Shown here: positions 1-7,317 of the stretch, one piece after another
Numbering within the stretch: the stretch's first letter is position 1
How the letters are laid out: each line of letters opens with the position of its first letter
DNA from: Marinobacterium lutimaris
GTDB lineage: Bacteria; Pseudomonadota; Gammaproteobacteria; Pseudomonadales; Balneatricaceae
Assembly (NCBI RefSeq): GCF_900108065.1
Contig: NZ_FNVQ01000001.1
Location: 248,001 to 312,000, forward strand
Direction of reading: 5' to 3'
DNA length: 64,000 nt
The notes under the pieces: generated by a model
What the model saw: only the letters and a program-made list of their open reading frames with translations
Database searches by the model: none
What the model was told of the DNA's origin: nothing
Made by a program: the position numbers and the translations under genes

Positions 1-56
1 AGGACACCGACCAGGGCCCACCAGATCAGTTTCAACGTTTCATAATCGAATAGCAT
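1..56 (-). CDS. cydB: Cytochrome bd ubiquinol oxidase subunit II, N-terminal fragment
   Basis: Only the first 18 codons lie in the window. They read MLFDYETLKLIWWALVG, which is the usual start of CydB and its first membrane helix. A purine-rich GGAAGAGG lies just upstream of the ATG, and the gene begins 19 bp after the cydA stop, so the two are one operon. CydB is the integral-membrane partner of CydA in the bd-type quinol oxidase. Nothing can be said of the rest of the gene. Confidence 0.9.
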   Translation of the reverse strand, partial: MLFDYETLKLIWWALVGV

Positions 57-75: not shown

Positions 76-1662
76 TCAGGCGTTCACTGACGACTTGGCT
101 GTGCTCGGAGCGGGCAGCTCGTCGTGATAGCGACCGGTATGCAGACTGCTTGGGCCTTTGCGGGCGAAGCGGATCATCAGGTACATCTCGATAATCGCCA
201 GCACCGTGTAGAAGGCGACGAAGGCGATCAAACTGCCGATCAGGTCAGCCTCGGTAAGGCTCGATGTAGCGATAAACGTCGGTAGTACCTCACCAATCGC
301 CCAGGGCTGACGGCCGAACTCGGCCACAACCCAGCCAAACTCAGATGCGATCCAGGGCACTGGCAGGCTGAACAGCGCCAGGCGCAGAAGCCAGGTTTTG
401 TGGAAGGCAGTGCGGCGGGCGGTGAAGTAGAAGCTCAGGGCAAACACCATCAGCATCCAGAAACCGCAGGCCACCATGATGCGGAAGCTCCAGAACATCG
501 GGAACGATGGCGGTACGGAGTTTCTCGCCGCCTGGGCGATCTGCGCTTCGGTGGCATCCGTCACATTCGGTGTGAACTGCTTCAGCAGCAGGCCGTAACC
601 GAGATCGACTTTTACATCGTCGAATTCGGCGCGCAGTTCCGGGGTGTCCTCGCCGCCACGCAGACGCTCGAGCAGTGAGTAAGCGTGCATGCCGTTGCGG
701 ATACGCACCTCATGCTGGGCAACCAGGTCCTTGATGCCGGTGACCTCTTCATCGATGGAACGAGTAGCGATCAGGCCGAGCAGGTAAGGAATACGCACGG
801 CGTAATCGGTTTCCATGGTCTCATCGTTGGGTATGCCGATCAGGGTGAAGTGGGCCGGTGCTTCAGAGGTTTCCCATTCCGCTTCGATGGCGGCCAGCTT
901 GGCTTTCTGAACGTCGCCAACTTCGTAACCGGACTCGTCACCGAGCAGGATCACCGATAGTACGGCGGCCATACCGAAGCCGGACGCTACCGCGAAAGAG
1001 CGGCGGGCAAACGCCAGGTCACGCCCTTTCAGCAGGTAGTAGGCGCTGATACTGAGTACAAACATGGCAGCAGTACAGTAGCCGGCAGAGACGGTGTGCA
1101 CGAATTTAACCTGGGCAACCGGGTTGAAGTAGACATCAGCAAAGCTGGTCATCTCCATACGCATGGTTTCAAAGTTGAATTCGCCGCCCACCGGGTTCTG
1201 CATCCAGCCGTTAGCCACCAGAATCCACATGGCAGAAAGGTTAGAGCCGATCGCCACCAGCCAGGTCACCATCAGGTGTTTCACCTTGGAGAGGCGTTCC
1301 CAGCCGAAGAAGAACAGACCTACGAAGGTGGACTCCAGGAAGAACGCCATCAGGCCTTCAATAGCGAGAGGTGCGCCGAAAATGTCGCCCACATAGTGAG
1401 AGTAGTACGCCCAGTTGGTGCCGAACTCGAACTCCATTGTCAGGCCGGTGGTGACGCCCAGTGCGAAGTTAATACCAAAGAGTTTGCCCCAGAACTGGGT
1501 CATATCCTTGTAAATCTGCTTTCCGGTCATGACATAGACTGACTCCATGATTGCCAGCATGAAGGTCAGGCCGAGTGTCAGTGGCACGAATAGAAAATGG
1601 TACAGCGCCGTGATGGCGAACTGTAGCCGGGAAAGATCAACGACGGATTCGGTGATCATCAC
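76..1662 (-). CDS. cydA: Cytochrome bd ubiquinol oxidase subunit I
   Basis: CydA oxidises quinol and holds the three hemes of the high-affinity bd oxidase in the cytoplasmic membrane. The 528-residue product has the expected ligands, each offset by three from E. coli numbering: His22 and His189 (E. coli 19 and 186) and Met396 (E. coli 393). The Q-loop motif [11 protein letters not shown]...E carries Lys255 and Glu260, matching the quinol-binding pair Lys252/Glu257. The loop is long, as in the E. coli-type subfamily. Translation starts at a doubled ATG behind AGGAGAT. The upstream region carries a sigma-54-type promoter, and the divergent gene is a sigma-54 activator, so regulation by that protein is likely. 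Confidence 0.97.
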
Positions 1663-1708: not shown

Positions 1709-1724
1709 AGCAGCTAGCATGCCA
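1709..1724 (-). promoter_or_regulatory. Sigma-54 (-24/-12) promoter for cydAB
   Basis: Read on the minus strand the site is TGGCATG-CTAG-CTGCT. The GG and GC dinucleotides have the exact sigma-54 spacing, and the site agrees with the consensus TGGCACG-N4-TTGCW except for two bases. The predicted start lies near 1698, leaving a leader of about 36 nt before the cydA ATG at 1662. The divergent gene encodes a GAFTGA-type activator, which raises confidence. Confidence 0.7.
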
Positions 1725-1843
1725 GATGCAACTTAAAAACAGTGTTGCATTTGCGGCACTCTTGGAACTCCCGTGGTTACTGGAAAGTTGGATCTGAAAT
1801 ACTTCTTTATAGATAGCGTAGAACAAAAACAGAAGAGACAAAG

Positions 1844-1881
1844 TGTCACACCTGGCAGATAATGGCTGTCACATATGACAG
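1844..1881. promoter_or_regulatory. Candidate activator-binding sites (TGTCACA repeats)
   Basis: TGTCACA occurs at 1844-1850 and again at 1867-1873. The second copy is part of the inverted repeat CTGTCA-CATA-TGACAG (1866-1881), and the first sits in GTGTCACAC. The cluster lies about 150-185 bp upstream of the predicted cydA start, a normal distance for sigma-54 enhancer sites. It also overlaps the leader of the activator gene, so it could give autoregulation. Function is inferred. Confidence 0.4.
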
Positions 1882-1895
1882 TTAAGAGGCGGCAG

Positions 1896-3251
<1,356 letters not shown>

Positions 3252-3262
3252 AGGATACAGCC

Positions 3263-4144
3263 ATGTTGAAATCCAGAATGCTGCGGGTGTTCGCGCTGGC
3301 GCTGGCGATGCCGGGCGCTGCCAGTGCGGACCTGCCGGAGCTGTTCGGTAATCTGCAGATCCCGTCGACATTACCGTCGATGGTGGAGGATTCGGCTGAT
3401 CTGATTATCCAGGTGCCCAGGCAGGTCGACCCGGCCTCTCCGGTGCCGATACGGATTCGCGTGCTGCAATCGCCGGTGGCTGCCATTACGCTGCTCAGCG
3501 ATGCTGTAGACCCGGTACAGCTGGCCAGTTTTGACCTGCAGCCTGGTATGGATGCGCAGGTGGCCACTCGGTTTATGAGCGCTGAGGTTGCCGGTGTGAT
3601 GGTCGTCGTGCGTACGGCGACAAATCGTATCTTCGCCGGGCGCCGCACCTTCGAGCTGGTACCGAAAACCGCGCCGTTACTGGCTTTGGCACCGGACGCC
3701 CAGGCATCCGGCAGCACCGTTTCTATAAAGAATGCTCCTGCGGTATCTGCAGCAGCTTCTTCTACTGTTTCTTCTGCCGAGCCTGCTGAGGAGTCCTCTG
3801 CAGCATCCTTGGTTGAGAACGCGCCGGATTCACTGGCGCTGCGGCTGGATGCGGTAGTGGTGCGTGATGATTCTGTCCGCGTCACCCTGCGTAGCGCCGA
3901 ACCGCTGGTGCGCCGCATGCAGCATCAGGCGATTCGGGATCCACAAAATCCGGTCACCCGGTTTGAGTTGAAGCACAAGGGACGTGTACTGGTGAGCGCA
4001 GATCTGGACGCCGCCATGTGGAGTGACCCGTTTTTCAGTTTCAGTTTCGTCGGCGGCAAGCCGGGCGACAGCCTGACACTGAGCTGGGCACATGCAGATG
4101 GGGAGCAGGGAGAGCTTCAGACGACCATTCAGCCCGCAGCCTGA
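3263..4144 (+). CDS. SoxY-SoxZ-like fusion protein lacking cysteine
   Basis: The 293-residue product has a signal peptide (cleavage after about Ala22), a SoxY-like immunoglobulin-fold region (about 35-135), an Ala/Ser/Glu-rich linker (about 140-185) and a SoxZ-like C-terminal domain (about 190-290). The last has the SoxZ pattern RFELKHKGRVL, then DPFFSFSFVGGKPGD and LSW. SoxYZ proteins carry sulfur intermediates on a C-terminal cysteine of SoxY (GGCGG motif). No cysteine occurs anywhere in this protein, so covalent sulfur carriage by the known mechanism is excluded. It begins 11 bp after the activator gene and is probably cotranscribed with it. Related quinoprotein-dehydrogenase-associated SoxYZ fusions are known, but no dehydrogenase lies here. 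A binding or scaffold role is possible. Confidence 0.72.
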   Translation: MLKSRMLRVFALALAMPGAASADLPELFGNLQIPSTLPSMVEDSADLIIQVPRQVDPASPVPIRIRVLQSPVAAITLLSDAVDPVQLASFDLQPGMDAQVATRFMSAEVAGVMVVVRTATNRIFAGRRTFELVPKTAPLLALAPDAQASGSTVSIKNAPAVSAAASSTVSSAEPAEESSAASLVENAPDSLALRLDAVVVRDDSVRVTLRSAEPLVRRMQHQAIRDPQNPVTRFELKHKGRVLVSADLDAAMWSDPFFSFSFVGGKPGDSLTLSWAHADGEQGELQTTIQPAA

Positions 4145-4158: not shown

Positions 4159-4213
4159 AGCGCTGTTGCCTTTTTGATATTAATTACCGACTATTTTTAA
4201 GGAGAAGGCTTTG

Positions 4214-4996
4214 ATGCGTAGCTTAACGCTGATAGGCTGCTGTTTCGCTTTGTTCCTGGCAGGCTGTGTGCCAGGTAATGGGCAGCCGGGTGCGGCAGCG
4301 GGTGGTGATGGTGCAGCGGCAGAGCCGCAGGCAGCTCTCAATGCAAAACCCGACGCAACTCTCGATGCAACACCCGATGCAAGAGCGCAGGCACCCGCTG
4401 AGACGCCCCGAGCCGCAGCTGATGGCTCTGAAGGCGCATCCGCAGGTGGATCTGCCGGATCTCTGGGCAACCAGCTGGATCAGTTGAATGGTCGCCTGAC
4501 CCTGGTGCAGGAGCAGCTGATGCAGCTCAGGGCCCAGGTTCAGCAGCAGGGAGAGCTGAATCAGATGGTGCTGACCCGCCTGCAGCAGATGCCGCAGCAG
4601 TCAGCCAACTCTCAGGATGCCCTCGCCGCTATGGATGCCGAGGGGGCCTCATCGGTTGATGGCAGCCAGGTTGATGCTGCAATTGCACAATTGCTGCAGA
4701 CGGTCAATGAACTTGGTCTTTCCAGCAATAGTGATCTCTATGGCGTGGCTACCACCTATACCTCTAGAGGGGTATGGGTATTGATCCGCTATCGGCGTGA
4801 TACTGGCGAAACCTGGCTTGCCGACCAGGGCCGTTGGGCGGCGCTGGATGAGGAGGGGTACCCCGCGGCTTCCAGTTATGAAGTTAAGCTGCAGCGGGCC
4901 GACCAAGACCTCAAAGGCTACGTGGCAGTAAGGATAGATCGCAATACAGGTGAAAGCTGGTGGTTGAATGACCGGCGTTGGCAGAGATACGAATGA
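4214..4996 (+). CDS. Predicted lipoprotein with C-terminal tandem aromatic repeat
   Basis: The product is about 260 residues with a lipobox LAGC at Cys18, so it is probably a lipid-anchored envelope protein. After the anchor come an Ala/Pro/Asp-rich stretch with short degenerate repeats (about 30-75), a Gln/Leu-rich coiled-coil (about 92-125), and two copies of a Trp-rich motif near the C-terminus: RYRRDTGETWLADQGRW and RIDRNTGESWWLNDRRW. The ATG at 4214 is chosen because GGAGAAGG lies at 4201-4208. The stop overlaps the epmC start (ATGA), so the two are translationally coupled. No family is recognised. Confidence 0.75.
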   Translation: MRSLTLIGCCFALFLAGCVPGNGQPGAAAGGDGAAAEPQAALNAKPDATLDATPDARAQAPAETPRAAADGSEGASAGGSAGSLGNQLDQLNGRLTLVQEQLMQLRAQVQQQGELNQMVLTRLQQMPQQSANSQDALAAMDAEGASSVDGSQVDAAIAQLLQTVNELGLSSNSDLYGVATTYTSRGVWVLIRYRRDTGETWLADQGRWAALDEEGYPAASSYEVKLQRADQDLKGYVAVRIDRNTGESWWLNDRRWQRYE

Positions 4997-6211: not shown

Positions 6212-6667
6212 TCAGTTTCCGCCTTGGTGCATCTGGTGGCCCATCGGCATGACCGGCTGTACCGGGATCTCCAGCGCCTCGCTGCTGCCATCTGAAAACT
6301 CCAGTGTCAGATCGATCTTGTCTCCCGCGGCCAGGTTTTTCTCCAGGCCAATCAGCATCACATGCAGGCCGCCGGGTTTCAGGGAGACGCTCTCGCCTGC
6401 CGGCAGTTCAATGCCGTCGATACGACGCATCCGCATCACGCCTTCGTCCTGAATATGGGTATGCAGCTCTGCAACGCCGGCCACGCTGGTGGTCGCGCCG
6501 GTCAGAGTCAGCGCGGCATCGCCCTTATTGGTGATCTGCATGAAGGCGGCGCTATTGGGCTGGCCGGGAGGTACTGCGCGGGCGTAGGCGTCGTTAATGC
6601 TGACATCTGCTGCAAAGGCGGGTGTGGCCAGCATGCTCAGGAGCAGCAGGGGGGCAAGGGCTTTCAT
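6212..6667 (-). CDS. Periplasmic copper chaperone, PCu(A)C family
   Basis: PCu(A)C proteins deliver Cu(I) to the CuA or CuB site of cytochrome oxidases in the periplasm. The 151-residue product has a signal peptide ending at about Ala19 and the full copper motif H-X10-M-X21-H-X-M: His69, Met80, His102 and Met104. The C-terminus adds a Met/His-rich tail (MPMGHQMHQ), a likely second copper site. It follows the SCO1 gene by 47 bp on the same strand, so both probably belong to one oxidase-assembly operon. Confidence 0.93.
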   Translation of the reverse strand: MKALAPLLLLSMLATPAFAADVSINDAYARAVPPGQPNSAAFMQITNKGDAALTLTGATTSVAGVAELHTHIQDEGVMRMRRIDGIELPAGESVSLKPGGLHVMLIGLEKNLAAGDKIDLTLEFSDGSSEALEIPVQPVMPMGHQMHQGGN

Positions 6668-6714
6668 CGTTCCAGTCTCCAGTTTTTATCCGCGAAGAGG
6701 GGGGCTTCGCCGGC

Positions 6715-7317
6715 TTATTCGTTGAGCAGACTTTCCAGTCGGTTTTTGACTTCGCCTGGCTGCACGCCATGATTGAGCAGACCGGCGAACTCGCCGTTGC
6801 GGTCGATCAGGTAGAGCCGGGATGAGTGATCGACGGCATAACCCAAGGCGGAATCTTCGAGCTCTACCTTGCGGTAAAAGGCACCGTACTGGCGCACCAC
6901 CTTGTCGATCTCTTCCGGGGTGCCGGTAAGGCCGATCAGGCGGTCGGAGAAAAAACGGGTATAGGTTTTCAGCTTTTCCGGGGTGTCCCGCTCGGGATCA
7001 ACGCTGATGAAGATGCCCTGTACCTGGCTGCGTTCTGTTTCATCAAGCTGGTTTAGCCCCTGGCTGAGTATTGCCAGTGATGTAGGGCAGACATCGGGGC
7101 AGGATGCGTAGCCGATATAGAGTACGGCGACCTGGCCGTGAAAGTCGGAAAGCGATACCGGCCCGTCAGCGGAGGTAAGGGTAAAGTCGCCGCCGATCTT
7201 TTGGCTGCTGATGCGATTGTCTGCAGGCGCCGGTTTGAGCACAAAAGCGGTGATCATTCCCGCCAGCAGGCAGGCGCTGAGGATCAGTAGTATTCGAAGC
7301 GTACGCAGCTGTTTCAT
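6715..7317 (-). CDS. SCO1/SenC-type copper-dependent oxidase assembly protein
   Basis: SCO1 proteins are membrane-anchored thioredoxin-fold copper chaperones or thiol reductases needed to build the CuA centre of cytochrome c oxidase. The 200-residue product has an N-terminal membrane anchor (about 8-27) and the copper ligands CPDVC (Cys73, Cys77) and His164 in AVDHSS. It is one base downstream of the small membrane protein gene and upstream of the PCu(A)C gene. The oxidase it serves is not in the window, since cytochrome bd contains no copper. Confidence 0.94.
   Translation of the reverse strand: MKQLRTLRILLILSACLLAGMITAFVLKPAPADNRISSQKIGGDFTLTSADGPVSLSDFHGQVAVLYIGYASCPDVCPTSLAILSQGLNQLDETERSQVQGIFISVDPERDTPEKLKTYTRFFSDRLIGLTGTPEEIDKVVRQYGAFYRKVELEDSALGYAVDHSSRLYLIDRNGEFAGLLNHGVQPGEVKNRLESLLNE

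Follow-up and report, generated by a model that had tools for sequence, protein, structure and literature searches.

Results

A cydAB operon and a divergent activator gene

The window (the whole stretch of Marinobacterium lutimaris DNA that was analysed, 64,000 nucleotides) opens with a cytochrome bd oxidase operon on the minus strand, from which an activator gene and two further genes diverge on the plus strand. The features discussed below are these:

1 to 56, minus strand: start of cydB, truncated at the window edge; the ATG at 56 opens MLFDYE
79 to 1659, minus strand: cydA, cytochrome bd oxidase subunit I, long type (Pfam Cyt_bd_oxida_I, E 8.1e-173)
1709 to 1724, minus strand: predicted sigma-54 -24/-12 promoter of cydAB, TGGCATGCTAGCTGCT (consensus match and comparison)
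1835 to 1863, plus strand: predicted sigma-70-like promoter of the activator gene (GAGACA, 17, GATAAT), weak alone
1844 to 1857, no strand assigned: putative proximal activator site, TGTCACACCTGGCA, centre at about -152 from the predicted start
1867 to 1880, no strand assigned: putative distal activator site, TGTCACATATGACA, centre at about -175 from the predicted start
1896 to 3251, plus strand: probable FisR-type sigma-54 activator with PAS domain, AAA+ domain with GAFTGA, and Fis-type helix-turn-helix (Pfam, alignment)
3263 to 4144, plus strand: SoxY/SoxZ-like fused protein without cysteine (Pfam SoxZ 4e-10, SoxY 1.8e-8)
4211 to 4996, plus strand: lipoprotein-like gene (N-terminus read by eye), conserved in the genus and present in loci L093-L097

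The cydA product has 527 amino acids from the ATG at 1659 (stop codon at 76-78) and scores 916 bits against the NCBIfam model PRK15097, under its cut-off of 968. The MLFDYE opening of cydB is also that of the CydB protein (cluster 5) of locus L013. The SoxY/SoxZ-like gene begins 11 bp past the activator gene, and the NCBIfam sox models score its product under cut-off. That protein has no cysteine at all, and in the related proteins of L093-L097 there is either no cysteine or a single one close to the N-terminus; SoxY works through a carrier cysteine, which is therefore absent here. The product of the 4211-4996 gene had no match in Pfam or NCBIfam, and at 6212-7317 on the minus strand translations read from the list of open reading frames resemble a copper chaperone and a SCO-type protein. 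Elsewhere the genome encodes rpoN, a persulfide dioxygenase (a 68% match spanning residues 7-292 of 293) and a second bd oxidase, of the short type. Neither of the two types of SQR that were tried gave a match in the genome, an empty result that is no proof of absence.

The activator is best read as a FisR-type protein

The sequence-only reading had taken the divergent gene to encode a GAFTGA activator, and its product does carry a Sigma54_activat domain (E 9.1e-65), with GAFTGA at residue 211, as well as a C-terminal Fis-type helix-turn-helix (HTH_8, E 7.9e-6). That reading missed the FisR-like identity of the protein, and hence its probable signal. The gene probably starts at 1896 and not at 1875: AGAGG stands ahead of the later start, the same-genus proteins of L093-L097 align from about there, and the earlier one would place part of the distal repeat within the gene. 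A search of the genome with the activator gave 21 matches; the best after the activator itself is 52% identical and spans only residues 131-396.

We collected relatives from three sources: a scan of genome contigs (the best 80 of at least 591), 79 family genomes, of which 41 had a match at E 1e-110, and 293 genomes from the order, of which 54 had one; the family and order sets overlap. After 21 of 131 loci had been dropped, as the match began past query residue 60, 110 were usable; six of these were not full length and were left out of the cysteine count and the tree, leaving 104 proteins. GAFTGA is exact in 86 of the 104. Three cysteines of the PAS domain are near-invariant among the 104 full-length proteins, the window's included (C54 is present in 104, C65 in 103 and C72 in 104), and S58, H59, P64, G69, E70 and P73 near them are invariant across 35 aligned sequences. 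The three are spaced as are Cys53, Cys64 and Cys71 of Cupriavidus pinatubonensis FisR, the last of which we take to be its third cysteine; the C54-C65 and Cys53-Cys64 spacings are the same. According to the accessible parts of the two reports, a tetrasulfide links Cys53 and Cys64 in the C. pinatubonensis protein (PMC9495516) and three conserved cysteines are described for FisR (PMC9774590). A relative from Cupriavidus metallidurans (51%) has the identical cysteine set, and its gene diverges from those of a persulfide dioxygenase (71% when compared with the L029 dioxygenase) and of an SQR (58% when compared with the L016 SQR). The usual divergent partner of such a protein would be a pdo/sqr operon, and in the window it is cydAB. 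Since this mismatch concerns the target and not the protein, we keep the name FisR-type for the protein and regard the circuit as a variant; on these alignments, FisR-type is the best reading of the activator.

Predicted promoter and activator sites in the window

The claim of a -24/-12 site upstream of cydA, in the correct orientation and with the correct spacing, held at 1709-1724 on the minus strand. TGGCATGCTAGCTGCT has GG at -24, GC at -12 and ten bases between them, and it faces cydA. With GC placed at -13/-12, the transcript is predicted to start at about 1698, 39 nt ahead of the ATG at 1659. The pattern TGGCAYGNNNNNTGCW has one exact match in the 64 kb, which is this site, and against shuffles of its own spacer the site has p of about 0.003; with up to one mismatch the sigma-54 pattern is found six times in the window against 7.3 expected, a chance frequency. 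The site is thus weak alone and becomes strong only when relatives are compared. An FNR/ANR box (consensus TTGAT-N4-ATCAA) was absent from the window's cydA spacer at up to one mismatch. A 25-bp inverted repeat, ATGCAA-N13-TTGCAT (1726-1750), adjoins the -24 element on its upstream side; it is exact in two of 69 spacers, those of the window (L001) and L093, and partly present in L096 and L097.

Further upstream, the TGTCACA repeats that had been placed about 150-185 bp from cydA are real, but are better seen as halves of two inverted repeats. The proximal one, TGTCACACCTGGCA, has one mismatch to TGTCA-N4-TGACA and none to TGYCA-N4-TGRCA; the distal one, TGTCACATATGACA, is perfect and lies 23 bp away. 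Here too single matches mean little: with up to two mismatches TGTCA-N4-TGACA occurs 24 times in the window against 22.5 expected, which is chance, and the single motif occurs at 21 places in the whole 5.57-Mb genome against 17 for a reversed control pattern, which is near chance. Among the matches listed, the window pair is the only case in the genome of two motif places less than 1 kb apart. Both putative sites are interleaved with the activator gene's own predicted promoter (one sigma-70-like match found against 0.4 expected from shuffling), which makes autorepression plausible.

Conservation across divergent loci

We scanned 69 loci with a gene divergent from the activator, the window's included; the divergent gene is cydA in 40, the dioxygenase gene in 15 and the gene for an SQR-like flavoprotein (cluster C4) in 14. 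A site was called good when it matched the consensus at 9 or more of its 12 letters and had both GG and GC, and the counts retain near-duplicates (for example L013/L109, L103/L104, L039/L134 and L123/L124). L037 lies beyond the 900-bp limit of this set and is counted in the cydA-centred comparison below (score 6), and L096 was scored a miss with a misplaced cydA start, its homology-based start giving 9. Of the 69 loci, 61 have a good site aimed at the divergent gene and 8 have one aimed the other way; in the cydA group the figures are 36 of 40 and 5 of 40. In a de novo dyad search TGTCA-N4-TGACA came out as the top 5-mer dyad (17 of 64 loci, 0.05 expected). A perfect TGYCA-N4-TGRCA is present in 42 of 69 loci against 0.06 in shuffles, and at least two near-perfect repeats in 44 of 69 against 0.05 (at most 1 in either set of shuffles). 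By group, the perfect repeat occurs in 29 of 40 cydA loci, 8 of 15 persulfide dioxygenase loci and 5 of 14 flavoprotein loci. Two other patterns were set aside: GATCA-N13-TGATC (9 loci in the dyad search) sits at the cydA end, where the coding sequence begins (10 loci), and an IHF-type pattern taken from the general consensus was uninformative, matching 11 of 69 spacers.

In six aligned spacers of the same genus, two of them nearly identical, the promoter and both repeats (at most one mismatch each) are conserved amid divergence. The comparison of related intergenic regions proposed in the sequence-only reading thus found the site conserved beside the gene pair in the genus and in many loci beyond it, not universally. 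The repeat has no near-match in the betaproteobacterial spacers L020, L025, L029, L033 and L041, and FisR may have a different DNA site there. The best site has a score of 8, under the threshold, both in C. metallidurans (L169, dioxygenase divergent), with one near-perfect repeat, and in Pseudoalteromonas piscicida (L170, cydA divergent), with none. The divergent FisR-cydAB pair of L170 is carried on a 1.3 Mb plasmid record, a large secondary replicon.

Repeats and promoter share a helical phase

Enhancer looping requires a helically phased distance between activator site and promoter. Taking one repeat per locus, the proximal, with repeats and promoters each chosen by score, we found that repeat-promoter distances cluster near 108, 120, 129, 140, 151 and 162, so that the upstream sites keep to one face of the helix. 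At 10.5 bp the phasing has R 0.71 in 46 loci and 0.76 in 16 loci of less than 65% mutual FisR identity; none among 20,000 jittered sets matched the observed phasing. In 30 of 46 spacings the distance from one repeat to the next is 21-23 bp. The phasing ties the repeats to the sigma-54 site, and, as it persists after thinning, shared ancestry is not readily the explanation.

cydA genes with and without FisR

For a comparison centred on cydA, 400-bp upstream regions were used, 68 of 71 being kept after the removal of three near-duplicates. The long-type cydA genes divergent from FisR, a set that takes in other families and betaproteobacteria, have a site of at least 9 in 20 of 24 cases and at least two repeats in 14 of 24 (four score under 9 and ten have no paired repeats). 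In the window's family, the long-type cydA genes that have no FisR close by carry neither a good site (0 of 11) nor paired repeats (0 of 11); one of them, L150, has FisR elsewhere in its genome. Fisher tests give 3e-6 for the site and 9e-4 for the repeats, relatedness being uncorrected. Four of an original 15 long-type controls were kept apart, as their FisR relative is either 7.5 kb away or placed beside cydA in convergent orientation: L143, L146, L147 and L151, with sigma-54 scores of 9, 10, 10 and 9, L151 also having two near-perfect repeats.

Short-type cydA genes divergent from FisR have the site in 13 of 14 cases and paired repeats in 13 of 14, and 5 of 14 also have a sigma-54 site facing the wrong way. 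Where FisR is missing from the locus, 7 of 9 short-type genes (six from one genus) still have a sigma-54-like site, and none of the 9 has paired repeats. By this measure a sigma-54-like site close to a bd gene is no exclusive mark of FisR. The six, L158-L163, have a CIO-like cydA preceded by both a strong sigma-54-like site and an FNR-like box, without paired repeats and with no activator match within the 1.5 kb examined; their cydA is possibly under another sigma-54 activator.

Sulfur genes around relatives

Gene clusters near the relatives were named with Pfam and NCBIfam on representatives. They include CydA, CydB, an MBL-fold persulfide dioxygenase, an SQR with a sulfur-transferase domain and the SQR-like flavoprotein (the last three named after the best NCBIfam models, all under their cut-offs), together with SoxX, SoxY, SoxZ and SoxC. 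cydA is in the locus of 46 of the 104 sampled proteins and is the divergent neighbour of 39, a few near-duplicates included; 25 of the 39 are of the long type and 14 of the short type. The divergent run is cydA, cydB, dioxygenase and SQR in L024, cydA, cydB and SQR in L033, and cydA, one unassigned gene, dioxygenase and SQR in L034. A second sulfur-oxidation association is seen where sox genes follow FisR in the same direction: soxX, soxY or soxZ in L013, L106, L107, L109 and L120, and soxC in L117-L119 and L121. No named sulfur or bd gene was found in the stretch examined for 19 of the 104, or 20 counting L100, whose sox label is doubtful because cluster C10 contains, beside five SoxZ members, a protein of 251-258 amino acids that looks unrelated (L098, L100, L108); the family- and order-survey loci span just 1.5 kb on either side, so that missing neighbours there are weak evidence.

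On a quick tree of the 104 proteins the long-type divergent label requires 9 changes, at least 8 of them on starred branches, and the short-type label 4 and 4. On this tree the FisR-cydA pairing has been gained or lost several times; gain and loss are indistinguishable and several long branches are uncertain.

Discussion

A model for sulfide-responsive control of cydAB

The proposal that sigma-54 controls cydA through the divergent activator is borne out, as far as comparison goes, by a conserved site and conserved repeats. Taken as a whole, the explanation that we consider probable runs from reactive sulfur through FisR and a sigma-54 promoter to a sulfide-resistant bd oxidase. Comparison of relatives supports the site architecture, its conservation, its helical phasing and its linkage to FisR; FisR binding, looping, the signal, autorepression and the physiology are what we infer. 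FisR dimers would bind the two TGYCA-N4-TGRCA repeats (1844-1857 and 1867-1880) and form an ATPase ring, which would loop onto sigma-54 RNA polymerase at 1709-1724 and set off cydAB transcription from about 1698. The trigger, the least certain step of the mechanism, is most likely persulfide or polysulfide derived from sulfide and sensed by C54, C65 and C72 of the PAS domain. Sulfide poisons haem-copper oxidases, and cells meeting it would induce the resistant bd oxidase. FisR probably also restrains its own synthesis, as the repeats span the activator's predicted promoter.

The signal is where an alternative survives best, as an unlikely reading that deserves weighing: sigma-54 and the activator would still drive cydAB, with the PAS domain sensing redox state, oxygen, nitric oxide or a metal; an Fe-S or metal site in it might, for instance, do the sensing. 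The invariant S58, H59, P64, G69, E70 and P73 beside the cysteines could form a metal site, and bd oxidases are resistant to nitric oxide and cyanide too. Against this, sulfur-oxidation genes (for persulfide dioxygenase, SQR, SoxX/Y/Z and SoxC) recur near the relatives, and the cysteine spacing is identical to that of FisR, a protein reported, in the text accessible to us, to respond to sulfane sulfur. It is far less probable that the activator governs only itself and the sox-like genes downstream, with cydA a bystander served by another promoter. The overlap of the repeats with the activator's predicted promoter and the conservation of the downstream genes in the genus would fit such an arrangement, but the sigma-54 site faces cydA, has been retained across the genus in a spacer much of which has diverged, and is absent where long-type cydA has no FisR nearby. 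Moreover, in ten loci of the family where FisR has no cydA beside it (L105, L107, L110, L113, L115, L117-L121) there is no site scoring at least 10 upstream of FisR, and paired repeats 20-25 bp apart occur there in L117 only. That the -24/-12 match and the repeats are chance we regard as a negligible prospect: one- or two-mismatch matches to either pattern are at chance level in the 64 kb alone, and conservation, orientation, pairing and helical phasing across relatives contradict it.

Returning to the reactive-sulfur model, we lean towards the view that the FisR-bd circuit was gained repeatedly in Proteobacteria, a persulfide-sensing sigma-54 activator having acquired control of bd oxidases of both the long type (CydAB) and the short, CIO-like type. 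Sulfide-resistant respiration would thus have been placed in the sulfide-detoxification regulon and not under oxygen control. The locus offers a candidate regulator joining sulfide to a bd oxidase, with a predicted DNA site, promoter, transcript start and signal. If the model is true, sigma-54 control extends to a terminal oxidase, and the TGYCA-N4-TGRCA motif can be used to find further FisR targets. The circuit would be a sulfide sensor switching on an oxidase of a type that tolerates sulfide in other organisms, and its predicted wiring recurs in many related bacteria.

Comparison with known systems

With NorR, the activator of nitric oxide reductase, the window's protein shares the sigma-54 AAA+ core. 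NorR has a GAF domain at its N-terminus, unlike this protein, which has a PAS domain with cysteines. We rejected a NorR identity, as the full-length NorR model is matched in the core alone (266 bits against a cut-off of 476).

Cytochrome bd of E. coli is controlled by FNR and ArcA. Its bd-I and bd-II enzymes are insensitive to sulfide and bo3 is inhibited, according to the accessible part of PMC8657789. As is predicted for the window's operon, it is under environmental control, which in the case of the sulfide-responsive YgaV is linked to sulfide; no FisR-type sigma-54 activator is named for it in the accessible part of PMC11858517. Sulfide is stated to induce cydAB in E. coli and Mycobacterium tuberculosis too (PMC7315123, as accessible). 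As far as its accessible text goes, an E. coli sigma-54 map has two sites near cyd genes and makes no claim of cydA control, and in a Campylobacter paper cydAB merely adjoins a non-coding RNA. The literature that we could consult, in part as incomplete texts and with few subscription journals covered, yielded neither FisR or sigma-54 control of cydAB or cioAB nor a dedicated regulator joining sulfide to bd oxidase induction.

The closest precedents are two. In Acinetobacter baumannii sulfide induces cydAB, and FisR, reported to be without the conserved sensing cysteines, controls a pdo-sqr operon (Walsh et al. 2020, PMC7315123, accessible text). That operon is divergent and has a predicted sigma-54 promoter, as here; unlike in the window, cydAB (A1S_1433-1434) lies apart from fisR (A1S_1707), and the text accessible makes no claim that it depends on FisR (PMC7315123). 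C. pinatubonensis FisR shares with our activator the sigma-54 activator architecture, the matching cysteine spacing and a sigma-54-dependent target operon, predicted in our case (PMC9495516, PMC9774590); its published targets, as far as those accessible texts go, are sulfide-oxidising genes, whereas the divergent operon here is cydAB. FisR and sulfide-induced cydAB were thus each known before; what would be new is cydAB as a FisR target, which gives a known regulator a new regulatory logic and is not a new kind of system.
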